In this document: positions 1-64,000 of the stretch, in pieces
How the letters are laid out: each line of letters opens with the position of its first letter
How positions within the stretch are numbered: position 1 is the stretch's first letter
Notes under the pieces: generated by a model
Database searches by the model: none
What the model saw: the letters and a program-made list of their open reading frames with translations, nothing else
What the model was told of the DNA's origin: nothing
Position numbers and translations under genes: made by a program
Assembly (NCBI RefSeq): GCF_020084865.1
Contig: NZ_CP071953.1
Coordinates: forward strand, 930,001 to 994,000
Direction: 5' to 3'
Source of the DNA: Candidatus Kaistella beijingensis
GTDB lineage: Bacteria > Bacteroidota > Bacteroidia > Flavobacteriales > Weeksellaceae
DNA length: 64,000 nt

Positions 1-764
1 TTAGTTTTGTTTTTTTTGTTTTTAAAAAGTAAACGCACGTCTTTCGGTGCCACAATTTCCGGATTTGCCTTAAATTTTTCAAGGAACAAATCACGCAATT
101 TAATTCCGGTCGAAATCATTTCACCTTTGCCAAAAAACGCCATATTATCGCCACCTAAAGCCAAATAATCAGAAGTTGCAATGTAATAAGTTTTTGCAGG
201 ATCAACTTCTTTTCCGTTGATTAATTCCTTCACCGACATTCCGTTATCTGTTTCAATATAAAGTCTAGAAACAGGATTGTTTTTCTGTGTCTTCAAGTAA
301 TAATCGAAAAGGCCTTTCAAATCCGAACCTTTCATTTTCACGATCATCACTTCATTTTCAAACGGCATTACTTCGTAAATATGTTTAGTCAAAATATCGC
401 CTTTCCCAATAGTAGAGCGTATTCCGCCCACATTGATTACGGCTGCGTCTACTCCGTTTGGGATTCCGTTTTTTCTCGCCCAATCGTCTGCACCTTCAAA
501 AGTAAAGTCTGCCAGAAGATTTCCCAAATTACTGTTGTCTCCCTGTTTGTTCAAATCGACATTTGTATAAGAAATTTTAGTATTCATTTTTCCTTCCAAC
601 TCAGCTTTATAAGGTTCGATGACTTTTGTAAAAGCTGCGTCTTCCGGTAAATCTTTGGAAAGGGAAATATTTTTCTCGGCACTTACTTTCGCCACACTCA
701 ACGCGGTTCTACACGAAGAAAGCGACAAAATTGCCAAACCAAGAACGAGGAATCTGTTTTTCAT
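1..764 (-). CDS. 5'-nucleotidase C-terminal domain lipoprotein, 3' end cut by window edge
   Basis: Reading from an ATG at 764, the frame is open to base 1 without a stop, so the gene is partial at its 3' end (at least 254 codons). The N-terminus is a short hydrophobic signal ending in a lipobox (LSSC, Cys about residue 18), so it should be an outer or periplasmic lipoprotein. The body matches the 5_nucleotid_C fold: NVGGIRS and the SDYLALGGDNM segment that in this family forms the nucleoside-binding cleft. The metallophosphatase half of a classical 5'-nucleotidase is absent; in related genomes it is a separate neighbouring gene, probably just left of the window (inference). The first three bases, TTA, look like a stop but are out of frame. 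Confidence 0.85.
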   Translation of the reverse strand, partial: MKNRFLVLGLAILSLSSCRTALSVAKVSAEKNISLSKDLPEDAAFTKVIEPYKAELEGKMNTKISYTNVDLNKQGDNSNLGNLLADFTFEGADDWARKNGIPNGVDAAVINVGGIRSTIGKGDILTKHIYEVMPFENEVMIVKMKGSDLKGLFDYYLKTQKNNPVSRLYIETDNGMSVKELINGKEVDPAKTYYIATSDYLALGGDNMAFFGKGEMISTGIKLRDLFLEKFKANPEIVAPKDVRLLFKNKKNKT

Positions 765-888
765 TGAGATAAAATCTTGAGTTGCAAATATAAAGATATG
801 AATATAAAGTTGTGATAATTTTTTCCAGGTAGGTGAAAATATTTTTATACAAAATACAGAATCAAAAGTTAGGTTTTTCAGTAATTCA

Positions 889-930
889 GATACTTTTGTC
901 TTGATACAAAAGTATCCAAAAAATCAAGAC
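889..930. repeat. Dispersed intergenic repeat with two mutually exclusive hairpins
   Basis: Bases 889-899 (GATACTTTTGT) pair perfectly with 906-916 (ACAAAAGTATC). Bases 898-905 (GTCTTGAT) also pair perfectly with 923-930 (ATCAAGAC), so the two stems compete for 898-905. It sits in the 412-bp gap between the nucleotidase gene and dapA. I recognise this type of sequence as a common intergenic element in Chryseobacterium-like genomes (from memory, not checked). Confidence 0.5.
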
Positions 931-1010
931 TGGATATTTTTCCTAAAAAATCTCCTACGTCATCTCATTTGTCCAATTGAAAAAACACAACAATTTTAGA
1001 AAACAGAACT

Positions 1011-1091
1011 TTAAAAATCTTTGATTTTTCACTTTGTGTACTAATTTCACCAATTAAGGAACAATTAAACTTTTGTGACTTTTGTGGTTTA
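1011..1091. repeat. Dispersed repeat (TTTTGTG nonamers) upstream of dapA
   Basis: Two recognisable parts: a segment reading CTTTGATTTTTCACTTTGTG (1020-1039 region) and a direct nonamer repeat ACTTTTGTG, ACTTTTGTG followed by GTTTA (1069-1091). Both parts occur again at 26949-27039 (the first part inverted there), and the nonamer part again at 25099-25120 inverted. Apart from this and the preceding hairpin element, the 765-1147 gap shows nothing I can support. Confidence 0.45.
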
Positions 1092-1147
1092 CATAATTTT
1101 TTTGTTTTTATGCAGTATTTTTTCACAAATTCTCATCTAAATTTTCG

Positions 1148-1155
1148 TATTTTTG
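1148..1155 (+). promoter_or_regulatory. -7 box of the dapA promoter
   Basis: TATTTTTG fits the Bacteroidetes consensus TAnnTTTG and ends 21 nt before the dapA ATG. No convincing TTG -33 box is seen at the usual spacing. Confidence 0.5.
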
Positions 1156-1176
1156 AAAACATTAATTTAATTCAGA

Positions 1177-2049
1177 ATGAGCAATTTAAAAGGAGTTGGT
1201 GTTGCTTTGGTAACGCCTTTCAATGAAGATTTGTCGGTAGATTTTGATTCGTTGACCAAATTGGTCGAGTTCAATATCGAGAACGGTACTAATTATTTGG
1301 TGGTTTTGGGAACAACCGCAGAAGCGGCGACGCTTTCAGAAGAGGAGAAAAAACAGGTTACAGAACATATCGTAAAGGTGAATAACGGACGTCTTCCTTT
1401 GGTTCTTGGAATTGGCGGAAACAACACGATGGAAGTTAAAAAACAGATTGAGCAAGCCGACCTTTCTGCTTTCGATGCAGTTCTTTCTGTTTCACCATAC
1501 TACAACAAACCTAATCAGGAAGGGCTTTATCAACACTATAAAGTTTTGGCCGGAACAGGAAAGAAAATCATTATTTACAACGTTCCTTCAAGAACCGGAC
1601 AAAATATTGAAGCTTCCACCACTTTGCGTTTGGCCAAGGAATTCTCGAATTTATTTTTAATTAAAGAAGCCGCACCCAATATTTTACAATATTTCGACAT
1701 ATTAAGACAAAAACCTGATGGTTTTAATTTGGTTTCCGGTGATGATGAATACACACTTCCCGTAACTTTAGCGGGAGGAAACGGTGTAATTTCCGTGATT
1801 GGACAAGGTTACCCGAAAGAATTCTCAACGATGGTTCAATTGGCTTTTGACGGAAAAGTAAAAGAAGCTTATGAAATCCACAATAAATTGGTGGAAATCA
1901 CCCGATTGATTTTCGCTGAAGGAAATCCTGCAGGAATTAAAACCGTTTTGGCGGAAAAAGGAATTATCAAAAATTATTTAAGACTTCCGTTGGTTGCAGC
2001 AAGCGCAGGTTTGCAGGAAAAAATAAAGGCGGAAATGGCGAAGATTTGA
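1177..2049 (+). CDS. dapA: 4-hydroxy-tetrahydrodipicolinate synthase
   Basis: Cytosolic enzyme that condenses pyruvate with L-aspartate semialdehyde, the first committed step of lysine and diaminopimelate synthesis. At 290 residues it has normal length for the family. Seen: the GTTAE motif near residue 46 (pyruvate carboxylate binding), YNVPSRTG with the catalytic Tyr near 134, and the Schiff-base Lys in LIKEA near 163; GGNGVISV near 205 follows. The start follows a -7 box by about 21 nt. It appears monocistronic, with a hairpin terminator after the stop. Family assignment is very secure. Confidence 0.97.
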   Translation: MSNLKGVGVALVTPFNEDLSVDFDSLTKLVEFNIENGTNYLVVLGTTAEAATLSEEEKKQVTEHIVKVNNGRLPLVLGIGGNNTMEVKKQIEQADLSAFDAVLSVSPYYNKPNQEGLYQHYKVLAGTGKKIIIYNVPSRTGQNIEASTTLRLAKEFSNLFLIKEAAPNILQYFDILRQKPDGFNLVSGDDEYTLPVTLAGGNGVISVIGQGYPKEFSTMVQLAFDGKVKEAYEIHNKLVEITRLIFAEGNPAGIKTVLAEKGIIKNYLRLPLVAASAGLQEKIKAEMAKI

Positions 2050-2084
2050 TACGAGGTTCGAGTTACGAGATTCGTGTCGCGGGT
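2050..2084. repeat. Heptad array A (consensus WCGAGNT)
   Basis: Five 7-bp units in exact register directly after the dapA stop codon, for example TACGAGG, TTCGAGT, TACGAGA. The 14-mer TCGAGTTACGAGAT (2058-2071) is identical to 37373-37386, about 35 kb away. Confidence 0.6.
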
Positions 2085-2102
2085 TTGGGAATATCATAAT
2101 TT

Positions 2103-2132
2103 AAAAGGACTTTTTTCAAAAGTTCTTTTTTA
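2103..2132 (+). terminator. dapA terminator
   Basis: Stem AAAGGACTTT / AAAGTTCTTT (one G-T wobble) with a four-base loop followed by a T run. The gap downstream to 2294 also holds a TTCTTTGCG/GACTTTGTT nonamer-like stretch at 2152-2170. Confidence 0.5.
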
Positions 2133-2294
2133 TGTGACTTAAATAAAAGAATTCTTTGCGGACTTTGTTAAGTGTTACGCCTTTGCCTCATCTTATTTAA
2201 CAATATTTATTGAATGGCTAACCTTCGATTTGCGAACTTAAAAGTTTTACGCAAGACAGCATAGTCATAAAACTTTGGGGACTTCTCGTTAAAT

Positions 2295-3020
2295 TCAGTC
2301 CAATGATTTTACCAATTCAAAAAAATATTCACCACATTTCGCCAAATGCGTTCCATACCAAGAAAACGCTTCACCATCTACCAAAACAATTTTTGAATTT
2401 AGAAGTTCTTTTTGCAGTTCATCAATATGCTTTTGCTGAAAAGGAAATGGTTCGGAAGAAAGGAAAATAAAATCGGCCTTCTTCATTTCCTCAACTAAAA
2501 TTTCGGGATATCTTTTTTCATTTTTAAAAACATTTTCAAAACCAAGTTTGTCGAGAATTTCATGGATAAAAGTATCGGAACCAATCGTCATGTACGGATT
2601 TTTCCAGATCAGGTAACATACTTTTTTGGATTCTTGATTTTTAATACCATTGATAATATCAGAAATTTTTTGATTGAAATTTTTGGCTGTATTTTCTTTG
2701 TTTAAAAGCGTTCCGAGTTCTGTTAAAAATCTTGAATTGTCTTCTAAAGTTTCAATAGCAGTTACCCAAACTTTGAAATCTTTCATCAATTCTTCAACTT
2801 GTAATTTTTCGTTTTCCTCTTTATTGGCGATAATAAGATCAGGATTTAAATTCTTAATTTTCTCTAAATTCAAGTTCTTGGTTCCACCGATAGTTTCAAC
2901 GTTTTTTACTAAACCTTTTGGATGTATGCAGAATTTGGTTCGACCGATAATTTCGGTATCAGTTAACCCAAAATCGAAAAGAGTTTCGGTGATGCTTGGA
3001 ACAAGAGAAATTATTTTCAT
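2295..3020 (-). CDS. Helical-backbone metal/cobalamin receptor-like protein (BtuF-like)
   Basis: 241 residues starting at ATG 3020 (a TTG lies one codon earlier). The sequence begins IISLVPSITETLFDFGL and contains TIGGTKNLNLEKI, PDLIIANKEEN and the closing VDGEAFSWYG block, as in the BtuF/periplasmic-binding fold with an interdomain helix. There is no signal peptide, unlike true periplasmic BtuF; Bacteroidetes have many such signal-less homologues whose ligand is uncertain. No ABC permease or ATPase is adjacent, so transport of vitamin B12 or a metal chelate cannot be inferred from context. mgtE lies upstream on the same strand with a 130-bp gap, so they are probably separate units. Confidence 0.75.
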   Translation of the reverse strand: MKIISLVPSITETLFDFGLTDTEIIGRTKFCIHPKGLVKNVETIGGTKNLNLEKIKNLNPDLIIANKEENEKLQVEELMKDFKVWVTAIETLEDNSRFLTELGTLLNKENTAKNFNQKISDIINGIKNQESKKVCYLIWKNPYMTIGSDTFIHEILDKLGFENVFKNEKRYPEILVEEMKKADFIFLSSEPFPFQQKHIDELQKELLNSKIVLVDGEAFSWYGTHLAKCGEYFFELVKSLD

Positions 3021-3153
3021 CAATGAGAATTATGTTTTAAACCATTAAGAAGTTAAGGTAGTTTTGTTAATAATTCAACTACCGAAAAGATAAATTTAGA
3101 CTTTTAACTTCAATCTTAATGAACCATAATCTCTTAATGGTTATAAGCCGTTA

Positions 3154-14241: not shown

Positions 14242-14416
14242 AACACAATCGTTTCGGTCTTTTACTCCTCCGTTTCGGTTGCCAACCGAAAAATTGCGGT
14301 CCGGAACCCCAAACTTCCGGTTGGGTAACCCCAAATTTTCGGTTCCGGACCGTAAGTTTAGGGTTCCGAACCCTACCGTTTCGGTTCTTTAGTGGTTCGT
14401 ACCGGTTAAAGACCGG
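14242..14416. repeat. Palindromic heptad array with 21-bp super-period upstream of the methyltransferase
   Basis: About 24 consecutive heptads (one unit has 8 bp) cycling as NTTTCGG, TTNNNAA, CCNNAAA. The CGG(T) heptad recurs about every 21 bp from 14251 to 14406; AACC marks recur at 14284, 14305, 14327, 14348 and 14369. Nested perfect palindromes: 14273-14291 (arms TTTCGGTTG), 14297-14308 with 14341-14352 (12-bp arms), 14359-14375 (8-bp arms), 14402-14416 (5-bp arms). It fills the gap between the methyltransferase start and the terminator of the upstream gene, so it overlaps the cassette's promoter or leader. Confidence 0.8.
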
Positions 14417-15342: not shown

Positions 15343-18000
15343 TTACAGCTCCATCGCTTTTTTTACAGCGGCATCAATTCCGTCTAGATTTTTACCGCCC
15401 GCAGTGGCGAAACCCGGGTTTCCTCCTCCTCCACCCTGGATTGCTGCAGCCAATTCTTTCACGATATTTCCGGCGTGGTATTTCGATTCCAAATCTGCGG
15501 AAACTCCCACGGTGATCATGGGTTTTTGGTCTGCATCAGAAATAATAACCGTCACAGAATTCGGAATTTCTTTCTTCAGTTGAAACACGATATCTTTTAC
15601 AGAACCTGCGTCCAAAGAAACTTTTTTCACCAAAAGATTTTTATCGCCGCTTTCTTGGAAGTCGTTTTTCCAGTTGGCAGTTTCTCCTTTTGCTTTTTCT
15701 TTTTTAAGGGATTCTATTTCGGATTTTAGGGATTGGTTTTCTTCGATTAATCTTTCGACAGATTTTGTCAAATCTTTCGACTTTAATAAGGAGGAAATTT
15801 CTTTCAGCTGTGCTTCCAAATTTTTAAAGTATTCCGAAGATTTATCACCGGAAATCGCTTCGATTCTGCGAATTCCCGCCGCAGTTGAACTTTCTGTCTG
15901 AATTTTGAAATGACCGATTTCCCCCGTTGATTTTACGTGGGTTCCGCCACACAATTCTTTAGAACTACCAAACTGAATCATTCGAACGTGGTCACCATAT
16001 TTTTCACCGAAGAGCATCATCGCCCCTTTTTCCGTTGCTTCCGCGATTGGAAGGTCACGGAATTCCTGCAGTGAAATATTTTCCTTGATTTTAGCATTTA
16101 CCTGATCCTCTACCAGTTTCAATTCATCTTCACTCATTTTCGAGAAGTGTGAGAAATCGAAACGAAGGTAATCCGGTCCCACAAAAGAGCCTTTCTGCTC
16201 CACGTGAGTTCCCAAAACGTCACGCAACGCTTCATGTAAAAGGTGCGTCACCGAGTGATTTGCCTGTGTATTTTTTCTTTCGGAATGATTAACTTTCGCG
16301 TAGAATACCGCACCTGCATCTTTCGGCAAATCTTTGATTAATGAAATGATCAGGTTGTTTTCTTTTTTGGTATCCAAAACTTCGATGATGTCCGAACAAT
16401 TTGTGATGTCAAAAACACTTGGGTTGGAAATATCAAAACCTTCCGTATAACTTGGAATTAAAATTCCCTTATCGCCAATTTGACCACCACCTTCCGGATA
16501 AAACGGAGATTTCGCCAAAACGATTTGATAGAACTCGCCGTCTTTGTTTTCTATTTTTCTGTAACGGGTAATATAAGTTTCTGTTTCCGTTTGGTCGTAA
16601 CCCACGAAAGTTTCAGGTTTTTCCTCTAAGATTACCCAATCGTGAACTTTGGACGCGGATGATTTTTTGGAACGCTGCTTTTGCTTTTCCATTTCTTCAT
16701 CAAATCCTTTTTCATCTACGGTTAAACCTTTTTCCTCTGCAATAATTCTTGATAAATCGGCAGGAAATCCGTAAGTATCGTAAAGCTCGAAAACTTCCGT
16801 TCCGGGAAGCGTTTTCTCGTTCTTGGAAATGGTTTCGTTGATGATTAGATCGATTCTTTTCAAACCGTGTTCAATGGTTTTAAGGAATGAAGATTCTTCT
16901 TCCTTAATCACTTCGGTAACCAATTTTTCCTGTTTGATGAGTTCCGGGAAGAACTGTCCCATTTCGTTTTTCAAAACGGCAACCAACTGATAAAGGAATG
17001 GTTCTTTCATTCCCAAAAATCGGTAAGAATACGAAATCGCTCTTCTCAAAATTCTTCTAATCACGTAACCTGCACCGCCGTTGGAAGGGAGTTGTCCGTC
17101 AGCAATTGCAAACGCCACCGCACGAATGTGATCCACCACAACACGAATTGCAATATCTTTTTCGTCTTCTAAAATTCCGGTATATTTTTTACCGGAAAGT
17201 TCTTCCACTTTGGCAATTAAAGGCGTGAAAACATCGGTATCATAATTTGATTTTTTTCCTTGCAAAGCCATACACAAACGTTCGAAACCCATTCCGGTAT
17301 CAACATTTTGCTTCGGTAATTTTTCTAAACTTCCGTCGGCTTTTCTTAAAAATTCCATGAAAACGAGGTTCCAGATTTCCACGACTTGCGGATGGTCGTT
17401 GTTCACCAAATCTAAACCAGAAACTTTTGCTTTTTCTTCCTCCGAACGCAAATCCACGTGAATTTCGGAGCAAGGTCCGCACGGTCCGCTTTCGCCCATT
17501 TCCCAGAAATTGTCCTTTTTATTTCCGTTGATGATTCTGCTCTCGTGAATATGGGATTTCCAAAAATGGTAAGCGTCTTGGTCACGTTCCAAATTTTCGG
17601 AAGCATCACCTTCAAAAATGGTCACATAAAGGTTTTCTTTTGGGATTTTATAGACTTCGGTCAGCAGTTCCCACGCAAAATCAATCGCCTCTTTTTTGAA
17701 ATAGTCTCCAAAAGACCAGTTTCCCAACATTTCGAACATCGTGTGGTGATACGTGTCGCGACCAACATCGTCCAAATCATTGTGTTTCCCGGAAACTCTC
17801 AAACATTTTTGAGTGTCGGCAATTCTTACATTCGATGGTTCTTTGTAGCCCAGAAAGAAATCCTTGAACTGCGTCATTCCCGAATTGGAGAACATCAAAG
17901 TGGGATCGTCTTTCAGAACAATTGGTGCGGAAGGAACAATTTGGTGTCCTTTTTCTTTGAAAAAATCTAAAAACTGTTGGCGTATCTGTTGTGAAGTCAT
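15343..18000 (-). CDS. alaS: Alanyl-tRNA synthetase
   Basis: 885 residues from ATG 18000 ([14 protein letters not shown]); the open frame extends 43 codons further upstream but only through heptad array C and unrelated sequence. Class II synthetase. Seen: catalytic domain with [32 protein letters not shown]-like [21 protein letters not shown]; editing domain with HSVTHLLH (HxxxH) and CGGTH zinc/editing motifs; C-Ala domain ending in [14 protein letters not shown]. Normal length and all key residues present. Confidence 0.97.
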
Positions 18001-18007
18001 ATTATTA

Positions 18008-18042
18008 AGTTTGAAGCTGGAAGCTGGGTGCTGGAAGCTTTT
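18008..18042. repeat. Heptad array C (AGCTGGA) in the alaS leader
   Basis: Five heptads in perfect register, for example AGCTGGA, AGCTGGG, TGCTGGA, located just upstream of the alaS start codon. Confidence 0.65.
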
Positions 18043-20400: not shown

Positions 20401-20442
20401 GATTTGGTTGGATGATTGGTGATGGATGCTGGATGGTTTAAA
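20401..20442. repeat. Heptad array D (NTGGATG)
   Basis: Six heptads in strict register, for example ATGGATG, CTGGATG, TTGGATG, between the zinc-ribbon gene and the toxin-antitoxin promoter. The inverted word set occurs at 34898-34932. Confidence 0.6.
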
Positions 20443-22656: not shown

Positions 22657-22703
22657 CATCAGAATTTTAATCTATTATCAATTATAACTTATCATTTATA
22701 AAT

Positions 22704-24374: not shown

Positions 24375-24409
24375 AGAGCCAAGTAAAAAGAACCAAGAGC
24401 CAAGTAAAA
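24375..24409. repeat. Heptad array L (AGAGCCA / AGTAAAA)
   Basis: Five heptads directly after the asnB stop: AGAGCCA, AGTAAAA, AGAACCA and repeats. The reverse complement of these words forms array K at 28105-28156, right after the tolC-type gene. Confidence 0.65.
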
Positions 24410-24444
24410 ATCCTGCGATTATTTTTTCGCAGGATTTTTTTTCC
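24406..24444 (+). terminator. asnB terminator
   Basis: AATCCTGCGA / TCGCAGGATT stem followed by eight Ts. Confidence 0.85.
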
Positions 24445-24455
24445 AAAATTTTTGC

Positions 24456-24497
24456 GATTTACAAATGCAGATTGCAGATCGACGAAAGCCGACAGCT
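24456..24497. repeat. Heptad array H (GATTGCA type)
   Basis: Six units in register, for example GATTTAC, GATTGCA, GATCGAC, GAAAGCC, running up to the last codon of the Crp/Fnr gene. Confidence 0.5.
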
Positions 24498-25618: not shown

Positions 25619-26830
25619 CTATGTTGTTGCAGTTATGGCGGTTTCTTCTTCCCCGGTTTCTTCGTTGATGCGGTATTTTTTGAAGAGGAAATGGATTTTG
25701 ATTTTTAGGGCAATCCAAGCCAAAATGAAGTAAATCCATCCCAAAATAAAAAGGTGCAGGAAGTATTTTTTGGTGAGAAAATCGGAACCTTTTTGCACGA
25801 GCATGATTTTGAGCGCCTCCAAATAAGGCGTTAATGGAATAATTGCGGTGAAATTCCTGATAAATTCGGGCATTGCAGAAGTGGGCCACGTAAATCCGCT
25901 GATGATGAACGCGGGAGATGCGATGACCATTAATACTTGAGTGGCTTTGAGCGCATCGGGAATGAGGATGCTGACCAAAACTCCCAAATTGGTTGCCGAA
26001 ACCACGAATATGGCAGTGACGAGGAAAAAATTCCAAACGTTTTCGGGCACCGGAATTTTGAAATACAGACTGCACAAATAGAAAAACAGGATGTTGAAAT
26101 TGGCGAAAATCCATACCGGAAGACATTTGATTGCCATTACTAAAACGGCGTATTTTTGTTTTCCGGCGAAATCTCTGATGAAAGATTCTCTTTTAAATTC
26201 TTCGGAAAATGTAACCGCCATTGCGAGTAAAATCACCTGCTGCAAAACCACCGCCATCATTGCAGGCCACATAAAAACCAAGTAATTACTCGTGGTGTTG
26301 AAGAGCGTGATGTAATTGGTTTTCAGCGGTTCGTATTGGGTTTTGGCGATTTCAGCGTTCATTCCTTTTTTTTGTAACGCCTTAATTTCAGCACCTGCGG
26401 AAAATGTTCCAAAAGTGAGTTGCAATGCTTTTGTGGCGAAATTTGCGGTCAAAACATTGGAGGTATTGACATAAACATTGATTTCGGGATATTTTTTTTG
26501 GAGCATCATTGCTTCAAATCTTTCGGGTATGATGACGACTGCGGATGCTTCGGTTTTGATGACCTCATCTTTTAGATTGGAAGGTTCATCAATGTAGTTC
26601 AGCACATTGATGGTTTTATTGTCTTGAAGCATTTCCACAATTTGGTTGGACATCGCGGAGTTATCGTGGTTGATGACGATGACGGGAATGTTTTCTACTT
26701 TTCCTTTTTGGTAGGTAAAACCGATAAGTAAAGCGTAGAAAATCGGCGCGACAAAAAAGACAGAAATCAATGTCTTGTTGGTAAAGAACAGTTTGAATTC
26801 GCGTTTTAGTAAATATCTTAGTTGTTTCAT
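25619..26830 (-). CDS. ABC-2 type transporter permease (drug/envelope exporter)
   Basis: 403 residues. One N-terminal membrane helix (SVFFVAPIFYALLIGF), a large periplasmic domain (about 45-175), then five C-terminal helices including the ABC-2 signature region FIISGFTWPTSAMPEF near 305. Matches YhhJ/YbhR-type permeases that work with an HlyD adaptor. It is last in a three-gene operon TolC, HlyD, permease. No ATP-binding subunit lies in the operon, and the usual second permease is also missing, so an ATPase encoded elsewhere is needed (inference). Confidence 0.88.
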   Translation of the reverse strand: MKQLRYLLKREFKLFFTNKTLISVFFVAPIFYALLIGFTYQKGKVENIPVIVINHDNSAMSNQIVEMLQDNKTINVLNYIDEPSNLKDEVIKTEASAVVIIPERFEAMMLQKKYPEINVYVNTSNVLTANFATKALQLTFGTFSAGAEIKALQKKGMNAEIAKTQYEPLKTNYITLFNTTSNYLVFMWPAMMAVVLQQVILLAMAVTFSEEFKRESFIRDFAGKQKYAVLVMAIKCLPVWIFANFNILFFYLCSLYFKIPVPENVWNFFLVTAIFVVSATNLGVLVSILIPDALKATQVLMVIASPAFIISGFTWPTSAMPEFIRNFTAIIPLTPYLEALKIMLVQKGSDFLTKKYFLHLFILGWIYFILAWIALKIKIHFLFKKYRINEETGEEETAITATT

Positions 26831-26833: not shown

Positions 26834-26875
26834 TTTAGATTTTAGCTGGCAGATTTCAGATATCAGACTTTTGAC
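26834..26875. repeat. Heptad array I (TTCAGAT)
   Basis: Six heptads in strict register between HlyD and permease genes, for example TTTAGAT, TTCAGAT, ATCAGAC. Confidence 0.6.
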
Positions 26876-26948
26876 TGCATTTTTTTAACCACGGAAGGCA
26901 CAACAGTTTTTTTTCACATTAGAGATGGAACTGAATGGGCTTTAGAAG

Positions 26949-28000: not shown

Positions 28001-28033
28001 TTTAAAGTTTGTTTGTTTGATGTAATTTGAAAT

Positions 28034-28068
28034 AGTTTGAATTTGTTTCAAGTTTCAGGTTTCAGGTT
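28034..28068. repeat. Heptad array J (TCAGGTT)
   Basis: TCAAGTT, TCAGGTT, TCAGGTT preceded by two AT-rich units, within the 150-bp gap between tolC-type and hlyD-type genes. Confidence 0.5.
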
Positions 28069-28104
28069 CAATGATTAAAAAATTCACTATTGACAGCGAA
28101 GCGA

Positions 28105-28156
28105 ATTCACCATTCACTTTCCTTGGCTCTTGGCTCTGTTTACTTGGCTCTTATAA
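28105..28156. repeat. Heptad array K (CTTGGCT), inverted relative of array L
   Basis: ATTCACC, ATTCACT, then CTTGGCT, CTTGGCT, CTGTTTA, CTTGGCT. The second part is the reverse complement of the words at 24375-24409. Confidence 0.6.
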
Positions 28157-36744: not shown

Positions 36745-37104
36745 TTACAATTCTTCCCGATTTACCAACTCCATTGAAAAGGCAGGTAGACAAATTGCAA
36801 TATATTCACACGATTCTTCAAACGGATTACTGTAGCGGATTCTTGCACCTTTTTCAATCAGAATGCTTTGTCCTTTTTCTAAAACCACCGTTTCTCCATC
36901 GATTTCAAATTGTTTTTTTCCGTTGATGATGTAGGTAAATTCATCAAATTCTGGAGTTTGGTGTGGTTCGCTCCAGTTCGGTGGCGCAATCATGTGTGCA
37001 ATTGAAATATTGGAATTTCCTGTTGAATTTCCCCAAATTTCTTCAATGAGTTTTCCATCGTTTGTGGGAACTACAAAAGGTGATTTTTGGATTTTATATT
37101 TCAT
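36745..37104 (-). CDS. Cupin-domain protein
   Basis: 119 residues, single cupin. PHQTPEFDEFTYIINGKKQFEIDG is the first metal motif (His, Glu) and VLEKGQSILIEKGARIRYSNP the second, in which the usual His is replaced by Arg. Possible small-molecule or metal binding; no specific role can be given. Confidence 0.85.
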   Translation of the reverse strand: MKYKIQKSPFVVPTNDGKLIEEIWGNSTGNSNISIAHMIAPPNWSEPHQTPEFDEFTYIINGKKQFEIDGETVVLEKGQSILIEKGARIRYSNPFEESCEYIAICLPAFSMELVNREEL

Positions 37105-37107
37105 ATC

Positions 37108-37156
37108 ATTTGAGATTTAAAGTTTTGAATTTGGAATTTGAAATTCAAATTTAATA
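37108..37156. repeat. Heptad array M (ATTTGNA)
   Basis: Seven AT-rich units in register upstream of the cupin gene, for example ATTTGAG, ATTTGGA, ATTTGAA. Also contains a partial palindrome TTTGAAATTCAAA. Low complexity weakens the case. Confidence 0.4.
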
Positions 37157-37184
37157 AAAACGGCAGGAAAATTTCCTGCCTGAA

Positions 37185-37367
37185 TTATTTTTCTTTTTCG
37201 CTTTTCTCTTTCGGAATTTCCTTCTTTTTTCTCCCCGAACTGATTAGATTTTCATGGAGCAAATACTCAATCTGCCCATTCACAGAACGGAATTCGTCAT
37301 TTGCCCACTTTTCCAACAATTTGTAAGTGGCGTCATCAATCCTTAAAACAAAACTTTTTTTTGCCAT
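37185..37367 (-). CDS. Arc-type ribbon-helix-helix DNA-binding protein
   Basis: 60 residues: SFVLRIDDATYKLLEKWANDEFRSVNGQIEYLLHENL is the Arc fold (strand, helix, helix), followed by a highly basic tail (GRKKKEIPKEKSEKEK). Follows the SPFH gene on the same strand by 103 bp, a pairing seen in other Flavobacteriia, so it may act with it or regulate it. A hairpin (GGCAGG / CCTGCC) near 37161-37181 can terminate it. Confidence 0.8.
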   Translation of the reverse strand: MAKKSFVLRIDDATYKLLEKWANDEFRSVNGQIEYLLHENLISSGRKKKEIPKEKSEKEK

Positions 37368-37421
37368 CGAGTTCGAGTTACGAGATACGAGTTACGTGTT
37401 GAGTGATTCGTGCTTCGAGTT
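37367..37421. repeat. Heptad array B (WCGAGWT)
   Basis: Eight units starting at the first base of the Arc gene's start codon: TCGAGTT, ACGAGAT, ACGAGTT, ACGTGTT and so on. Shares a perfect 14-mer with array A at 2058-2071. Confidence 0.65.
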
Positions 37422-37470
37422 TCCCAAAATTATTATTAATTGTTAATTATAAATTATTAATTGTTCCTTA

Positions 37471-38337
37471 TTAATTATAAAGCGTTCCCGCATTCAAAAT
37501 CGGCTGCGCCGCTTTTTCACCGCAAAGAACGACCATTAAATTGGAAACCATCGCCGCTTTTCTTTCGTCATCCAATTCCACAATATTTTCCTCGGAAAGT
37601 TTTTTCAGGGCTAAATCCACCATTCCAACTGCACCTTCAACGATTTTTGTTCGCGCTGCAACGATTGCTGTGGCTTGTTGTCGTTGAAGCATTGCACCTG
37701 CAATTTCGGAAGCATACGCCAAATGCGAAATTCTCGCTTCTTGAATGACGATTCCTGCTTTTGCCAATCGGTCAGTTAATTCCTGTTCCAAAATTTGATT
37801 AATTTTTTCACCACCTTCACGTAGCGTAATTGGAGCGTGGTCGTCTTCCAAATTATCATACGGAAAACTCATCGCCAAATGACGAACCGCCGCTTCACTC
37901 TGCATTTTAACAAAATCCATGTAACGTTCCACATCATAAGCAGCTTTGTAGGTGTCTCCGACTTTCCAAACGATTACGACACCAATTTCGATGGGATTTC
38001 CCATTTTGTCGTTCACCTTTAAAGTTTGTCCTTGCAGGTTTTCCGAACGGAGCGAAATTTTTTGTGATGAATAAAGTGGATTAATAAAAAACAAACCGTT
38101 TTCTTTTACAGAACCTACATATTTCCCAAAGAAATTCAGAACTCGTGAATGATTCGGTTGAATAATCATCAAACCTTTCATAAAAAAGACAAACGTAATC
38201 AGACACAGAACTCCCAAAATTACGAAACTTACATTTTGGTCAACTCCATTGATAAGGAAGTAAAGTCCCGCTGCAAAAAGCAAAAGACAGATGACTAACG
38301 CAAGATATCCTGACATTGGTTTTAAAACTTTTTCCAT
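37471..38337 (-). CDS. SPFH/band-7 (stomatin/prohibitin-like) membrane protein
   Basis: 288 residues. Two N-terminal hydrophobic segments (LALVICLLLFAAGLYFLI and FVILGVLCLITFVFFM), SPFH domain (about 55-230: IIQPNHSRVLNFFGKYVGSV, DKMGNPIEIGVVIVWKV, LTDRLAKAGIVIQEARISHLAY) and a coiled-coil C-terminal part. Forms membrane microdomain scaffolds or protease-regulating rings; partner here is unknown apart from the following Arc gene. Confidence 0.93.
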   Translation of the reverse strand: MEKVLKPMSGYLALVICLLLFAAGLYFLINGVDQNVSFVILGVLCLITFVFFMKGLMIIQPNHSRVLNFFGKYVGSVKENGLFFINPLYSSQKISLRSENLQGQTLKVNDKMGNPIEIGVVIVWKVGDTYKAAYDVERYMDFVKMQSEAAVRHLAMSFPYDNLEDDHAPITLREGGEKINQILEQELTDRLAKAGIVIQEARISHLAYASEIAGAMLQRQQATAIVAARTKIVEGAVGMVDLALKKLSEENIVELDDERKAAMVSNLMVVLCGEKAAQPILNAGTLYN

Positions 38338-41633: not shown

Positions 41634-41683
41634 GAGTTTGGGAGTGGGTGTGTTTGCGAGTTTGAGGGTTTGAGAGTTGAAAA
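41634..41683. repeat. Heptad array P (GAGTTTG/GAGAGTT)
   Basis: Units TTTGGGA, GTGGGTG, GAGTTTG, AGGGTTT, GAGAGTT in one register, ahead of the rplS promoter. Confidence 0.4.
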
Positions 41684-57204: not shown

Positions 57205-60200
57205 ATGAAAACAAAACTATTGTCGCTCGCTTTCGTAGCAGTTGCCGGTTTTTCCTACGGACAAACCGGTTCTTTATGGACTCAAGCTTCTAAAAAAGCA
57301 GGTTCACAAGTAATTGGAAATAAAACTTCCATTACTACACCTAAACTTTTTGAATTAGACATTCAAGGCTTAAAACAGCAACTAAAGGGAGCTCCTCAGA
57401 AACTTTCAGTTAATCAAAAATCTGAAAAAATTATTTCTTTTCCTTCCGCAGATGGAAAAATGGAGAATTTCAAAGTCTCTGAGCACTCCAATTTTGATCC
57501 TGTTTTAGCCGCGAAATATTCCGACATCAAATCGTATGTTGGGCAAAGTTTAGATGATCCTTCTAAGGTAGTTTATTTTAGTGTTTCTCCTTTGGGTTTA
57601 TCATCCATGGAAATCAATGCAGACAATTCCGCAGTTTTCATAGAACCTTATACCACTGACGCTTCAACTTATGTGGTTTACAAAAAATCTGACAAGAAAG
57701 ACAACCTAAATAAATTTGAATGTACAACCATTGACGACGTAAAAACTCAATTAGGAACAACTATTACAGCAAGACCTAATGCAGATGATGGTCTTTTGAG
57801 AACCTTCAGACTTGCCCTTTCTTGTACGGGGGAATATGCAGTATATTTTGGCGGAACAAAAGCGCAAGCTTTGGCGGCGATGAACAATACTATGACGAGA
57901 GTAAATGGTGTTTTCGAAAAAGACTTCTCTGTAAGAATGGTTCTTATTGCGAACAATGACGCGGTAATTTACACCAATGCTTCAACCGACCCTTATTCTG
58001 CGGCTTCTTCGATGAGCAGTTGGAATTCTCAATTACAGTCAACGTTGACATCTGTAATTGGTGAAGCAAATTACGACATCGGACATTTATTCGGAGCTTC
58101 CGGTGGTGGTGGAAATGCAGGTTGCATCGGCTGTATCTGTGTAAATGGATCAAAAGGTTCAGGAATCACTTCACCTGCAGACAATATTCCATCCGGTGAC
58201 AATTTCGATATCGATTATGTTGCCCACGAAATGGGTCATCAATTCGGTGGAAACCACACTTTTTCTATGAACAATGAAAGTACAGGTGCAAATATGGAAC
58301 CTGGTTCTGGCTCAACAATTATGGGTTATGCAGGAATTACATCGCAAGATATTCAAGCGCATTCTGATGCACTTTTTCATGCGATTTCCATTCAGCAGAT
58401 TACGAATAATGTGAAATCAAAAACCTGCTCTGTAAATACACCTACAGGAAACTCAATCCCAACCGCAAACGCAGGTTCAGACTATACGATTCCGAAAAGC
58501 ACACCATTTATGTTAACAGGAACTGCTTCTGATGCAAATGGAGACGCATTAACCCATATTTGGGAAGAAATGGATGTTGCTTCAACTTCACAAACGGGAG
58601 CAAGTTCTGCGGCAAGTGCTACAAAAACCTCAGGTCCTAACTTCAGATCCTGGACGGCAACCGCTTCACCAACAAGATATTTCCCAAGAATGCAATCTGT
58701 CTTAGCGGGAGCTACAACAACTGCAGGTCAGGAAATCACCGTTGAAGCACTTTCTTCTGTAGCAAGAACTTTAAATTTCAGATATACTGTTCGTGATAAC
58801 AGAGCAGGCGGTTCCGGAAATAATTCTGATGATGCGGTAATCACCGTAAATGCAACTGCAGGACCTTTTACCGTAACCTCTCAATCTGCTGCAACCACTT
58901 ACACAGGAGGAACTTCACAAGCAGTGACTTGGAACGTTGCAGGTACAACTGCAAACGGCGTGAACGCTGCCAATGTTGATATTCTTTGGTCAACCGATAG
59001 TGGAAATTCTTGGACAACACTTTTAGCCGCAACTCCAAATGACGGTTCACAAAATGTAGTGATTCCAAATGCAGCGACTTCCACAGGAAGAATTATGGTG
59101 AAAGGAAGCAATCACGTTTTCTTTAACGTAAACAAAGCAAACATTACCGTTACCGCGGGAACTTCAGACACCGTTGCTCCAACTGCACCTACACTTTCCG
59201 CATCAGGAACTACGCAAACTTCAACCAATCTTTCTTGGAGTGGCGCAACCGACAATGTGGGTATTATAGGTTATGACGTATACCAAGGAGCAGCTTTATT
59301 GGTTTCTACTTCTTCGGCTTCTTATGCAGTTTCAGGACTTTCTGCTTCTACAACCTATTCTTTCACAGTAAAAGCGAAAGATGCAGCAGGTAATATTTCG
59401 GCAGCAAGTAATGCGGTTTCCGTAACAACTCTAGCTCCTGTTTCTGATACAACTGCTCCAACAGCACCAACTTTGGCTGCTTCAGGAACAACCTCAAGTT
59501 CAACCAACCTTTCTTGGAGTGGAGCAACCGACAATGTTGGTGTTACAGGTTATGACGTATATCAAGGAGCAACTTTATTGGGTGCTACAACCTCAACTTC
59601 TTATGCAGTTTCAGGACTTTCTGCTTCAACAACTTATTCTTTCTCTGTAAAGGCGAAAGATGCAGCAGGAAATGTTTCAGCAGCAAGCAACACTGTTTCA
59701 GTAACAACTTTAGCAAATTCTGTGACTTACTGTACTGCGGCTGCAACGAATACCAATGACGAAAGAATTGGAAACGTAAAATTCGGAACCATCAACAATT
59801 CATCTACTGGAGCTGCAGGTTACGAAAACTTTACTGCAATTTCTACAAACGTAACGCGAGGAACAGCTTACGCAATTTCGATTACTCCGACTTGGACAGC
59901 ATCTAAATACAATGAAGCGTACTCTGTCTATATCGATTACAACGGAAACGGAGTTTTCACAGATTCAGGCGAAAAAGTTTGGACTAAAACAGGTTCAACA
60001 ACAACCCCTGTTACAGGTTCAATTACTATCCCTGCAACCGCAACTTTAGGTGCAACAAGGATGAGAGTGATGATGAAATACAGCACTGCTCCAACTTCAC
60101 CATGTGGAACTTACACTTACGGACAAGTTGAAGATTACACCGTAAACATTATGTCAACGGCAAAAGAAAACGCGGCAATTGTTAATCCAACGAGAGAACT

Positions 60201-60402
60201 TTCAATCTACCCGAATCCTGTTAAAGGAAGTACATTGAATATTACTAATGCAGATTCTTCCGAGTTCAGCATCTACGATTTGAGCGGAAAAAAAATCAGC
60301 AGCGGAAAAATTTCTGATAATACAGTAAGTGTAAACGCTCTTCCAAAAGGAGTCTACCTCATCAAGGTTGGGAATGTTTCTAAAAAATTCATCAAAGAAT
60401 AA
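57205..60402 (+). CDS. Secreted reprolysin-like (M12B) metallopeptidase, T9SS cargo
   Basis: 1,065 residues. Signal peptide ending SYGQ; propeptide (about 20-190); metzincin catalytic domain with HEMGHQFGGNH near 341-351 (HExxHxxGxxH) and a downstream Met-turn region IMGYAG; PKD/cadherin-like segment (about 415-650); two fibronectin III domains (near 665 and 760) that are almost identical in sequence (WSGATDNVG, TTYSF, VKAKDAAGN), pointing to recent duplication; GEVED domain (about 880-985, YIDYNGNGVFTDSGEKVW); T9SS type A end (SIYPNPVKGS ... SKKFIKE). Extracellular protease predicted. Confidence 0.93.
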   Translation: MKTKLLSLAFVAVAGFSYGQTGSLWTQASKKAGSQVIGNKTSITTPKLFELDIQGLKQQLKGAPQKLSVNQKSEKIISFPSADGKMENFKVSEHSNFDPVLAAKYSDIKSYVGQSLDDPSKVVYFSVSPLGLSSMEINADNSAVFIEPYTTDASTYVVYKKSDKKDNLNKFECTTIDDVKTQLGTTITARPNADDGLLRTFRLALSCTGEYAVYFGGTKAQALAAMNNTMTRVNGVFEKDFSVRMVLIANNDAVIYTNASTDPYSAASSMSSWNSQLQSTLTSVIGEANYDIGHLFGASGGGGNAGCIGCICVNGSKGSGITSPADNIPSGDNFDIDYVAHEMGHQFGGNHTFSMNNESTGANMEPGSGSTIMGYAGITSQDIQAHSDALFHAISIQQITNNVKSKTCSVNTPTGNSIPTANAGSDYTIPKSTPFMLTGTASDANGDALTHIWEEMDVASTSQTGASSAASATKTSGPNFRSWTATASPTRYFPRMQSVLAGATTTAGQEITVEALSSVARTLNFRYTVRDNRAGGSGNNSDDAVITVNATAGPFTVTSQSAATTYTGGTSQAVTWNVAGTTANGVNAANVDILWSTDSGNSWTTLLAATPNDGSQNVVIPNAATSTGRIMVKGSNHVFFNVNKANITVTAGTSDTVAPTAPTLSASGTTQTSTNLSWSGATDNVGIIGYDVYQGAALLVSTSSASYAVSGLSASTTYSFTVKAKDAAGNISAASNAVSVTTLAPVSDTTAPTAPTLAASGTTSSSTNLSWSGATDNVGVTGYDVYQGATLLGATTSTSYAVSGLSASTTYSFSVKAKDAAGNVSAASNTVSVTTLANSVTYCTAAATNTNDERIGNVKFGTINNSSTGAAGYENFTAISTNVTRGTAYAISITPTWTASKYNEAYSVYIDYNGNGVFTDSGEKVWTKTGSTTTPVTGSITIPATATLGATRMRVMMKYSTAPTSPCGTYTYGQVEDYTVNIMSTAKENAAIVNPTRELSIYPNPVKGSTLNITNADSSEFSIYDLSGKKISSGKISDNTVSVNALPKGVYLIKVGNVSKKFIKE

Positions 60403-60425
60403 CATGTACTATTAATTATTTTAAG

Positions 60426-60459
60426 ACCGCCCCAAATTAATTTTTGAGGCGGTTTTTTC
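60426..60459 (+). terminator. Reprolysin gene terminator
   Basis: ACCGCC / GGCGGT stem and six Ts. Confidence 0.8.
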
Positions 60460-60550
60460 ATTACACCACTCTGAAGCGGTTTCTTCAACTTTGGTAAAGG
60501 CGTGGGTAGATTACTCGTTTCTTTTAAGTACAGGAAAGTTTCATTTTTTC

Positions 60551-60558
60551 TATATTTG
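60551..60558 (+). promoter_or_regulatory. -7 box of the pyrophosphohydrolase gene
   Basis: TATATTTG, 17 bp before the ATG. Confidence 0.5.
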
Positions 60559-60575
60559 CTTAAATTTAAATTTTA

Positions 60576-61043: not shown

Positions 61044-61062
61044 TTTATTTTAAATTTAAGCA

Positions 61063-61623
61063 ATGAAAAAAATAATAAAATCTCTTTTTGCTGCCGCAAC
61101 AATTCTTCTTGTGGCACAATCTTGTGAAGCACAGAAAGTAGTCGTAAACCGAGAAGTAGACACTACGAATGACGGAAAAATGCTTTTGGGAACTCAAACT
61201 AAAAGCCAACTTTTAAAGGAGCCATACAGCAGTTGGTACACGAAAGAACACGACCAATATACACTTGATGAGGCAACAGTTGCCCAATTGAAAAAAGAAA
61301 AATTAAACTCCTATAATATAACTTTGGTGATGGGAACTTGGTGCGAAGACAGCCACCACGAAGTTCCCAGATTGATGAAGCTTTTGGAAACTTTAAAATA
61401 TCCGGAACAAAAATTGAATATCATTGCCGTAAATAGAAAAAAAGAATCACCAAGTGGTGAAGAAGGGATTTACAATATTCAGAGAGTTCCAACCATCATC
61501 GTTCAAAAATATGGCAAAGAAATTGGTAGAATTGTAGAAACGCCGAAAACTTTTTATGTAGAAAAAGACCTTTTGGAAATCATTAAAAAAGACAATTCAT
61601 CCATCAAAGATTTATTTAAATAA
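61063..61623 (+). CDS. Thioredoxin-like lipoprotein
   Basis: 186 residues. Lipoprotein signal (VAQSC, Cys about 21). Thioredoxin fold with an unusual active site WCEDS (CxxS in place of CxxC) near 96 and a cis-Pro loop RVPT near 142. A CxxS site suggests a mixed-disulfide or isomerase role rather than a standard oxidoreductase. Downstream gene starts 1 bp after its stop. Confidence 0.82.
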   Translation: MKKIIKSLFAAATILLVAQSCEAQKVVVNREVDTTNDGKMLLGTQTKSQLLKEPYSSWYTKEHDQYTLDEATVAQLKKEKLNSYNITLVMGTWCEDSHHEVPRLMKLLETLKYPEQKLNIIAVNRKKESPSGEEGIYNIQRVPTIIVQKYGKEIGRIVETPKTFYVEKDLLEIIKKDNSSIKDLFK

Positions 61624-61624
61624 A

Positions 61625-62236
61625 TTGAAAAATCAACAGAAAATACTACCGTTCATTTTAGGAGCTGCTGCAATGTTGCTCCTGTTTTTTATTTGGAACG
61701 CCATCACCAAAAAAGCAGATGACAAAATCCAAAACGACTTCTACATCATCACCAACCAAATCAAAAAGATGAACAAAATGGTCGTGATGGAACAGGATTT
61801 TTCGAGCATGCAAAAAACGAAAGTGACTTCCCAACTTCTCGGCGGAATGCTTCCCAATATGGAGAAAGAACTCATCACCTTCACCAAAACCAACGCACAA
61901 GTTTCTTATGATTTAAATAAAATGAAACTCGATGTGGATTCAGTTAATAAAAAACTCATCATTAAAGAACTTCCAAATGCAGACATCAAAATTACGCCAA
62001 GCGTGGAAATTCAGTCGATGGACGATTCTTTTTTCGACCGTTTTAATGAAAACGATTTCAAAAAAATCACTCAGAATGCGAAAGATAACGCTTACAAAAC
62101 GGTAAACCAGGACCGTTTAAGAAATGAGGGAAGAAAGCAACTTTTAGAAAATCTCAATAATATATTTGTTTTGGCAAAGGCTTTGAACTACAAAATTGAA
62201 GACCAAACCGGTCAAATCGACACTTCAAAACTTTAA
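61625..62236 (+). CDS. DUF4230 protein, TTG start
   Basis: 203 residues. No ATG gives a sensible N-terminus; TTG at 61625, one base after the preceding stop, yields a membrane helix (ILPFILGAAAMLLLFFIW) followed by the DUF4230 pattern: FTKTNAQVSYDLNKMKLDVDSVNKKLIIKELPNADI and LLENLNNIFVLAKALNYK. Function unknown; probably anchored in the inner membrane facing the periplasm. Coupled to the thioredoxin-like gene. Confidence 0.78.
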   Translation: MKNQQKILPFILGAAAMLLLFFIWNAITKKADDKIQNDFYIITNQIKKMNKMVVMEQDFSSMQKTKVTSQLLGGMLPNMEKELITFTKTNAQVSYDLNKMKLDVDSVNKKLIIKELPNADIKITPSVEIQSMDDSFFDRFNENDFKKITQNAKDNAYKTVNQDRLRNEGRKQLLENLNNIFVLAKALNYKIEDQTGQIDTSKL

Positions 62237-62241
62237 ACAAA

Positions 62242-62436
62242 ATGATTATGGATAAGCAGAAACATCAAACCAAAACCAAAGAAGCAGAAATAAAAAAGGA
62301 AAATCAGGATTTCCCAAACATTCCCGCCTCATCAGAAAAAATACATTCGGAGAAAATGGCGAAAAAGGAAATTAAAGAAACCTCTAAACTTCATGATGAC
62401 GGAAAAACCGACAATACAGAGAAAAGCGAAAATTAA
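62242..62436 (+). CDS. Small hydrophilic lysine/glutamate-rich protein
   Basis: 64 residues (two close ATGs), almost all charged or polar (KTKEAEIKKENQDF, EKMAKKEIKETSKLHDD), probably disordered. Follows the DUF4230 gene by 5 bp and is ended by a GCGAAAA / TTTTCGC hairpin with a T run, which supports it as the last gene of the operon. No family recognised. Confidence 0.6.
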   Translation: MIMDKQKHQTKTKEAEIKKENQDFPNIPASSEKIHSEKMAKKEIKETSKLHDDGKTDNTEKSEN

Positions 62437-62559
62437 TTTTTTCGCCTTTTTTTTATTAAATGTTAAACTAATCACAAACTCTGCAAAACGCTTTGAAATG
62501 CATGATTATCGTTGTAGTATGACTTACATAACAAGTTTTAAAGTCCTGTTACAAAAATT

Positions 62560-62871
62560 ATGAATTATAAAATCCAAGCTATTTTCGCCACTGAAAGCGA
62601 GGCGAATTCGGCTTCATCACTACTCCATGCTGCAGGTTATCGTAAAGAATTTCTTGGTTATAAGCAAAACGCACACCTTCAACCCGAATCTTTGGTTGAA
62701 GACCATCACATCGATAAAAATTATGTGACCGTTTTTACAAAGAATTTAAATCGTGCCTTCAAAGCAAGAAATATTTTGTCTAGAATTGGAGCGGTTTCTA
62801 TCAAAATGAAACATCAGTTTTCCCAACAAATTATTAAAGTTGAAAAACTACGATTTTCAAAAAAATTGTAA
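62560..62871 (+). CDS. Stress-type (YflT/GS17M-like) protein, short paralogue
   Basis: 103 residues. IQAIFATESEANSASSLLHAAGYRKE and KNYVTVFTKNLNRAFKARNILSRIGAV match in order the N- and C-terminal halves of the longer gene at 63129 but without its acidic middle insert. The pattern resembles the YflT general-stress domain (family inference, moderate). Confidence 0.65.
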   Translation: MNYKIQAIFATESEANSASSLLHAAGYRKEFLGYKQNAHLQPESLVEDHHIDKNYVTVFTKNLNRAFKARNILSRIGAVSIKMKHQFSQQIIKVEKLRFSKKL

Positions 62872-63128
62872 ATGAAATTCAGAATAATCTTTTGGAATAT
62901 CACCAGCAACCTATCGCAATGGATCATTCTCAGAAAACGTAAAATATAAAATCCAAAAAAATTTCAGATTCAGATAATATGCTGTTAAACAATCGTTAAG
63001 ACAGCACTTGAATAAAAAGTATTATGTTAAATAGTTCTAAATTTTATACGATGCATTCCTTTTGTCATCATTTTTGATCAACTTCAACTATCAAATCACA
63101 AAATATTAACACTTAAAAATTTAACATT
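62872..63128. other. Gap between two stress-type paralogues
   Basis: 257 bp, AT-rich, no coding or structural feature seen; it should carry the promoter of the 63.1-kb gene. Confidence 0.4.
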
Positions 63129-63656
63129 ATGTCTTACACAATTGTGGGAATGTTCCCAACCAACGAGGATGCAGATAAAGCTTCAAACAAATTAGATAAT
63201 GCAGGATTTGCCAAGGAAGATTACAGAGTTTCGCGCTACTCCACTTCCGGCAGCCACGAAACTGATGCAGAATATGATTATGAAGAGGACGAAAAAACCA
63301 CAGGTTTTTGGAATTGGCTTTTCGGCGACGATGAGACTGAAAAACAAAAATACAGCTACGCAGGAACAAAAAGTAACATGGTAACTGTTTACACCGATGA
63401 TTTAGAAAGAGCCGAAGAAGCGAGAGACATCATGAACGAACAAGGCGCAGTGAATGTGACCGATTTCACCAAAGACCGCTACAATAACGAAGAATTTGTT
63501 TCTCCCGATAACAATCTCACCGCCGATGAACGCGCAAGAATCATCAACAAGGCAAAAAACGATTTATATTTCACGGAAGATACAAGAACTTACAGCCTAA
63601 CCAACCGTGGGATGACTTCCGATATGGATTCCATGGGAAATAGAGACACTTTCTAA
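63129..63656 (+). CDS. Stress-type (YflT/GS17M-like) protein, acidic
   Basis: 175 residues. MSYTIVGMFPTNEDADKASNKLDNAGF is the YflT-like start; an acidic stretch (DAEYDYEEDEKTTGFWNWLFGDDETE) near 40-65; then MVTVYTDDLERAEEARDIMNEQGAVNV. C-terminal tail polar. Paralogue of the gene at 62560. Probably cytosolic. Confidence 0.7.
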   Translation: MSYTIVGMFPTNEDADKASNKLDNAGFAKEDYRVSRYSTSGSHETDAEYDYEEDEKTTGFWNWLFGDDETEKQKYSYAGTKSNMVTVYTDDLERAEEARDIMNEQGAVNVTDFTKDRYNNEEFVSPDNNLTADERARIINKAKNDLYFTEDTRTYSLTNRGMTSDMDSMGNRDTF

Positions 63657-63713
63657 AAATAGTTTTCATAATTTTTCGCGACCCTTTCAGCACTTTTGTT
63701 GGGAGGGTTTTTT

Positions 63714-63742
63714 GTCATTGCGAGCGAACCGAAGCAATCTCA
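63714..63742. repeat. Dispersed repeat GTCATTGCGAGCGAA...GAAGCAATC
   Basis: GTCATTGCGAGCGAACCGAA then GCAATCTCA: a widely distributed intergenic repeat type with ATTGC/GCAAT ends. The rest of 63657-64000 has no supported gene; an open frame at 63772-63975 has no protein-like features. Confidence 0.5.
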
Positions 63743-64000
63743 TTTTTTTTAGAAGCATCAAGTTTTGAGATTTGTTTGAAGGGCAGTCCCGCTTTCCATT
63801 ACCATTGAAAATTTACAAATCAGAGAGTCAATCGAGGCTAGAAGTCTTTTCAGTTCTTCTTTTGAAAAAATTCTGCGCCATCTACAAAATCTGCGAGAGA
63901 AAAATTTTCACTTTTTTAGGTTTTTTTGGTAGCAGTATCAAAATATCAATAGAAACAAGTTTTAACCCGTTTTAACAGCAGAACTCAATTTGGCTTTAGC

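Follow-up and report, generated by a model that had tools for sequence, protein, structure and literature searches.

The window analysed here, bases 930001–994000 (64,000 nt) of the 2.82-Mb single-contig genome of Candidatus Kaistella beijingensis (Weeksellaceae), carries among its genes pnp, alaS, asnB and dapA, the last with matches of up to 94% in Chryseobacterium/Kaistella. Gaps between the genes hold short, diverged tandem arrays of 7-nt units (heptads). These arrays are a variant of an already known class of bacterial repeats, the heptanucleotide simple-sequence repeats, and the strand they present depends on the gene end beside which they lie, with C exceeding G on the sense strand before start codons and G exceeding C after stop codons.

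Array rates were taken from an unbiased sample, made up of the window and 20 further stretches of 20 kb spaced about evenly along its genome (L009–L028). Position, orientation and quadruplex counts also include a second own-genome batch (L118–L137), partly chosen for containing CGAGATT matches, and so cover the window and 40 stretches. Genes were called mechanically, as the longest open reading frames (ORFs) with TTG/GTG starts shifted to the first ATG, and some starts are wrong.

Non-coding DNA of the unbiased sample shows a lag-7 identity of 0.3111, against 0.2937 (standard deviation 0.0019) in 20 dinucleotide shuffles (z 9.1), with harmonics at lag 14 (z 6.6) and lag 21 (z 5.6). There is no lag-7 peak in coding DNA, where identity at lag 7 (0.2571) is close to that at lag 8 (0.2567). 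Period-7 arrays with a score of at least 14 number 23 in 55,595 non-coding bases, where 0.2 are expected from five shuffles. Coding DNA has 7 of them in 408,405 bases, or 0.95 per equal length. The initial annotation, made from the sequence of the window, had described a 7-bp register in intergenic DNA that spares conserved coding regions, and both the autocorrelation and the array counts bear this out. Period-14 arrays at the same threshold number 7 in non-coding DNA (0.2 in shuffles). When periods 4 to 24 are compared in non-coding DNA at a score of at least 12, period 7 is the commonest (32), followed by period 14 (11) and period 10 (7). An array of period 7, 14 or 21 is present in 39/260 gaps of at least 60 bases. 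Tandem 7-nt units beyond chance, scarcer in coding DNA and with a unit length that is no multiple of 3, are the properties of heptanucleotide simple-sequence repeats. Lags 10, 11 and 12 are likewise elevated in non-coding DNA (z 7.7, 6.9 and 5.8), and period-10 arrays number 7 there, against 0.8 in shuffles.

Array density is lineage-specific. Per 10 kb of non-coding DNA it is 6.5 in the window's own genome, 5.8 and 4.8 in G050, and 0–3.3 in the other nine sampled genomes, a range that excludes stretches L232–L242, which were chosen at CATTACT matches. Named Weeksellaceae loci around dapA hold 21 period-7 arrays, against 0 in shuffles, and 1 lies in coding DNA. Loci from other Bacteroidota hold 3, against 0.3 in shuffles. 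In one other set of named loci, some gaps are represented by several orthologues, so that its members are not all independent.

With periods 7, 14 and 21 pooled at a score of at least 12, 90 arrays were found in the window and the 40 stretches, and 73 of these lie in tandem (co-directional) gaps. Their density is 1.19 per kb in tandem gaps, 0.57 in divergent gaps and 0.34 in convergent gaps. Among the 73 tandem-gap arrays, 35 end within 15 nt of a start codon, 28 begin within 15 nt of a stop codon and 7 do both; even placement would give 19.5 at each gene end. For 25 of the 73, the distance to the start codon is 0–5 nt. Over the final 60 nt upstream of starts, lag-7 identity is 0.346, compared with 0.320 at lag 6 and 0.312 at lag 8; over the initial 60 nt downstream of stops it is 0.307, below that of lag 10 at the same place (0.314).

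The strand rule, which the initial annotation had not noticed, is seen at both gene ends. On the sense strand of tandem gaps in the window's genome, C exceeds G in 26/28 near-start arrays (G exceeds C in one, and one is a tie), and G exceeds C in 15/21 near-stop arrays (the reverse in 4, with 2 ties), so that start and stop orientations differ (Fisher P = 1e-7). At the same positions of 272 array-free tandem gaps, C exceeds G in a fraction of 0.57 near starts (0.31 for the reverse), while near stops the fractions are 0.44 for G over C and 0.43 for C over G. Because this skew is far weaker than that of the arrays (P = 1.2e-4 at starts, 0.011 at stops), local composition alone is insufficient to explain the rule. 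Relatives follow it too. Assigned to the nearer gene end in every type of gap, and with identical 21-base words counted once per set (this was not done for the 90 own-genome arrays), their arrays number 23 with C over G to 2 with G over C near starts, and 29 with G over C to 5 with C over G near stops (Fisher P = 1.6e-9). Of the relatives, G041, G144, G006, G040 and G050 were chosen for word counts or for a known array, with stretches at round coordinates; ten genomes with round-coordinate stretches contribute 9 to 2 of these counts at starts and 12 to 1 at stops. The GCNGAAA array before pnp, just beyond the 15-nt cut-off, is a counter-example.

The same geometry has been described for heptads in Xanthomonas (GGGAATC) and Nostoc (GGGGA(C/T)T), for which quadruplexes were proposed and, in the part of that study drawn on here, no role in gene regulation was identified (Rehm et al. 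2015, PMC4692102). Those repeats are also intergenic 7-nt tandems, lie mainly in co-directional gaps, and have their G-rich side on the antisense strand upstream of starts and on the sense strand downstream of stops. The correspondence would favour G-quadruplex or i-motif elements here as well. However, they use one or two fixed G-rich, quadruplex-forming words, whereas the arrays described here use many words, and the canonical motif of four runs of at least three G (or C) occurs in 0/90 arrays of the window's genome. Four runs of at least two are present in 6/90, and 36/90 contain no GG or CC whatever. The quadruplex reading is thus rejected as very improbable.

Perfect 7-nt dimers in the non-coding DNA of the unbiased sample occupy 31 sites and represent 26 different words, compared with 3–7 sites and 2–7 words in eight shuffles. 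This diversity is unlike the tandem heptanucleotides of Calothrix, which reportedly comprise three fixed words. It also argues against one binding protein, a reading that the 25 arrays abutting start codons would otherwise suggest, as they are placed like the TAACTGA direct repeats found close upstream of starts in Beggiatoaceae, Cyanobacteria and some Bacteroidetes (PMC4679880, in the part consulted). TAACTGA is a single word, and perfect dimers of it occur in none of 884,000 bases of the window's genome and at a single locus across 2.9 Mb from relatives; moreover, the arrays after stops bear the opposite strand. Heptads near start codons are therefore unlikely to be sites for a sequence-specific protein, although a sequence-independent heptamer binder is possible.

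Words do recur between distant arrays, as had been stated initially. Three tandem copies of CGAGATT (up to three mismatches) gave 48 matches grouped as 27 places in the window's genome, and the reversed-pattern control gave none. Three copies of CATTACT (up to two mismatches) gave 36 matches at 22 places, though the mirror symmetry of this word makes its reversed control uninformative, and CATTACT is present in 22/296 genomes of the phylum sample. Such recurrence could reflect dispersal, in which a mobile element or gene conversion copies words or short arrays between gaps and the insertion target sets their orientation. In the same direction, 12-mers common to different gaps number 2378, compared with 1817–1864 in shuffles, the commonest being mostly AT-rich words outside arrays. 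Words diversify inside single arrays, however, and the change of unit number seen at an orthologous gap (below) fits local growth, so dispersal seems an improbable source, if a shade less so than a binding protein. Other intergenic repeats were observed alongside the arrays. The AGAGCCAAG word family forms evenly spaced higher-order repeats of about 65 bp at G050:C1:531361-531661 and about 83 bp at G002:C3:206920-207387. By eye, GGCGCACATTTCCGGCTTTCACTACTCGC... is an intergenic element of about 100 bp that follows the same gene in several Chryseobacterium (L036, L039, L053, L054, L058 and L080, at about 2036–2465). In the unbiased sample, 5 separate gaps contain the near-palindrome GGCTAAAGCCAA, which is perhaps a second dispersed intergenic family.

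Opposite strands at the two ends of a gap might also mean that arrays on the stop side pair with their reverse complements on the start side as arms of an intergenic RNA hairpin, serving termination or coupling. Arms with a period of 7 can be seen by eye in several gaps (e.g., L012 1062, L017 10479, L128 7788, L131 8350 and L132 1957), and a complementarity score of at least 12 is reached in 8/49 array gaps, a mild excess over the 4.0 obtained with swapped arms. The excess is larger in array-free gaps (27/225 against 6.6). Complementarity within gaps is then not specific to those with arrays, and hairpin arms were rejected as a doubtful explanation.

The gap that separates an SDR gene from a large gene resembling a glycoside hydrolase (by eye) was readable in 19 named relatives, and 12 of these carry an array with a score of at least 11. 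A search of L231 did not find the corresponding gap of the window's genome. The words differ between species (ATCAATT, TACTCAT, AAAGTTC, ACATTAT and AAATCTG). Within the C. indologenes group the word of the pre-start array is constant and the number of units varies. Seven close Chryseobacterium loci have about 2 to 5 units before the start and about 0 to 6 after the stop (counted by eye), and the ATTACTC array of L082 is 14 nt longer than that of L044, by one clean insertion. This gap is direct, single-locus evidence of change in 7-nt units, and it supports the earlier suggestion of a continuing expansion. The accompanying view that this is something other than simple slippage is not borne out, because stepwise gain and loss of 7 nt alone preserves the register; the proposed selection on spacing finds no support. 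After asnB, an array (score of at least 11, within 100 nt of the stop) is present in 4/29 relatives (L142, L157, L163 and L164), all with G over C, two with AGAGCCA-type words and two with other words. The L142 gap (genome G005) differs from window positions 24375–24495 by two substitutions and one indel in 121 columns, while the asnB genes are 83% identical, which suggests a recent exchange. Around window positions 20–63 kb there is almost no synteny with G005.

The favoured explanation, to which a probability of about 0.5 is given, is that the arrays are heptanucleotide simple-sequence repeats produced by tandem expansion in steps of 7 nt, and that selection acting on the ends of mRNAs filters their orientation. 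Arrays would lengthen and shorten by whole units, as seen at the SDR gap, while point mutation would erode the units and leave the register intact. It has been proposed in the literature that the step of 7 comes from polymerase slippage, the contact being about 7 nt. Survival is nearly confined to non-coding DNA, as the counts show, and selection on the mRNA beside gene ends would sort orientation, so that a G-poor, C-type strand survives before start codons and a G-type strand is tolerated or favoured after stops. Codons are probably part of this filter. A multiplied word multiplies its start and stop codons, whose copies land in all three frames because 7 is not divisible by 3, and this could let translation select the strand. 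The 28 near-start arrays contain 19 start codons as they lie and would contain 102 if flipped, and stop codons in all three frames are found in 11/21 near-stop arrays as they lie and in 3/21 when flipped. An added factor linked to G and C at mRNA ends (leader structure, Rho loading or similar) must also contribute.

Several observations weigh against this explanation. The orientation counts are smaller when taken from the unbiased own-genome sample alone (17 to 0 at starts, 7 to 3 at stops). Near-stop arrays carry 48 start codons as they lie and 24 when flipped, and the part of PMC6764699 drawn on reports no evidence that eubacteria are selected for additional 3′ stops. The strand rule also holds in arrays that have no more than one start codon on either strand (3/3 with C over G at starts; 4/5 with G over C and one tie at stops) and in those that have no more than one stop codon (4/4 at starts, 3/3 at stops). 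The filter must therefore consist of more than codon avoidance, with a G/C effect added to it, which weakens start and stop codons as the sole cause. Independent local slippage does not predict words that recur at 22–27 places, or CATTACT in 22/296 genomes. A single gap, with one clean event, supplies the evidence for unit-number change. Indels between relatives show no excess at 7 nt (non-coding counts of 2, 2, 2 and 6 at lengths 6, 7, 8 and 11); both 7-nt cases share one AT-rich stretch and resemble a single event, and no 21-nt case passed. Comparison of orthologous gaps showed units and words varying at the SDR gap and no general 7-nt indel bias, although the relatives compared, with identities of at least 82%, are not close enough to test such a bias sharply.

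The arrays of the window are listed in Table 1. For 16 coordinates at which heptads had been proposed initially, a 70-base stretch was scored against shuffled windows, and 11 hold an array. Seven are clear (18008, 20401, 24456, 26834, 28034, 37108 and 37367; score at least 10, P at most 0.003) and four moderate (2050, 6156, 24375 and 28105; score 8–9, P 0.005–0.0095), these P values being without correction for many tests. Four are unsupported: 14242 has a lag-7 score of 0 and lies within a called ORF, 21221 scores 3, 34898 scores 5 and 6002 scores 6 (P 0.04), the last two with lag-14 scores of 8 and 10 that have no null for comparison. Position 41634 is a period-8 array (lag-8 score 15). Arrays at 22670–22699 and 37432–37465 were absent from the initial list.

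Table 1. Heptad arrays in the window, with strand, setting and lag-7 score (uncorrected P in brackets).
Heptads	Position	Strand	Setting	Lag-7 score	Other
CGAGGTT/CGAGTTA/CGAGATT	2052..2074	+	directly 3′ of dapA stop codon (2049); dapA by NCBIfam	8 (0.0095)	G-type on sense strand; lag-14 score 11
GCNGAAA	6164..6194	+	upstream of pnp (ATG ~6212, 17 nt off); pnp by NCBIfam	8 (0.0095)	G>C; lag-14 score 9
AGCTGGA	18007..18039	-	upstream of alaS	14	C-type (AGCTTCC) on alaS sense strand
NTGGATG	20413..20435		divergent gap	10 (0.0027)	
ATCAATT-type	22670..22699	+	end 4 nt before asnB start		C-type
AGAGCCA/AGTAAAA	24375..24410	+	directly 3′ of asnB stop	9 (0.0052)	period-21 score 15
GATTGCA/GACGAAAGCC	24466..24496		end at stop of next, minus-strand gene	10 (0.0027)	
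TTCAGAT	26834..26876	-	begin 3 nt before start of minus-strand gene 25619–26830	12	weakly C-type on sense strand
GTTTCAG	28045..28068	-	tandem gap 28001–28150	15	
CTTGGCT	28122..28137		tandem gap 28001–28150	9 (0.0052)	AAGAGCC word family
ATTTGAA	37108..37152	-	begin 3 nt before start of gene 36745–37104	16	C-type on sense strand
CGAGTTA	37374..37423	-	mid-gap, 37105–37470	21	top lag-7 score among the 16 coordinates
ATTATTA	37432..37465	-	5 nt after stop of gene 37471–38337		nearly all A/T; scored C>G, exception to strand rule

The mechanical ORF that runs to 18129 spans the AGCTGGA array, and homology to alaS starts only at residue 44–48 (about 17990–18000). The AGAGCCA/AGTAAAA word has dispersed matches in the window's genome and in relatives. 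Overlapping arrays of 21–22-bp units lie at 14290–14387, adjoining 14242. A 279-bp tandem unit (1.9 copies, 84% matches, 59175–59714) lies within ORF 57205–60402 and represents repeated domains of a large protein.

The initial annotation knew of no named element with this behaviour. Heptanucleotide repeats are, however, a recognised class of bacterial simple-sequence repeats (PMC4679880), and the positional rule is that of the Xanthomonas and Nostoc repeats. In the parts of PMC4679880 and PMC4692102 drawn on, long simple-sequence repeats with a dominant unit of 7 and proposed slippage are cited from Mrazek et al. 2007; those are runs longer than expected, whereas the arrays described here are short, strongly diverged and detected by lag score. 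Calothrix (cited in PMC4692102) also has bacterial 7-nt tandem units. No published description of such arrays in Weeksellaceae or Flavobacteriia was found, in a search at the level of listings that covered few subscription journals.

At slightly less than even odds, one strand grammar would span unrelated phyla and unrelated words. The geometry in Xanthomonas and Nostoc would then not be about quadruplexes but would be what a lineage-specific process of 7-nt expansion leaves behind at gene ends, its orientation being set by selection on how transcripts and reading frames end. The positional rule of heptad arrays is separable from the quadruplex idea, because it holds here in arrays that lack the canonical motif, and growth in 7-nt steps combined with a strand filter would offer an account of how intergenic DNA is constructed. 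On the reading above, array-rich genomes such as that of Candidatus Kaistella beijingensis would be living records of 7-nt expansion, and the comparison of array-rich with array-poor sister species (4.8–6.5 against 0–3.3 arrays per 10 kb of non-coding DNA) would provide a setting for the question of why the step is 7.

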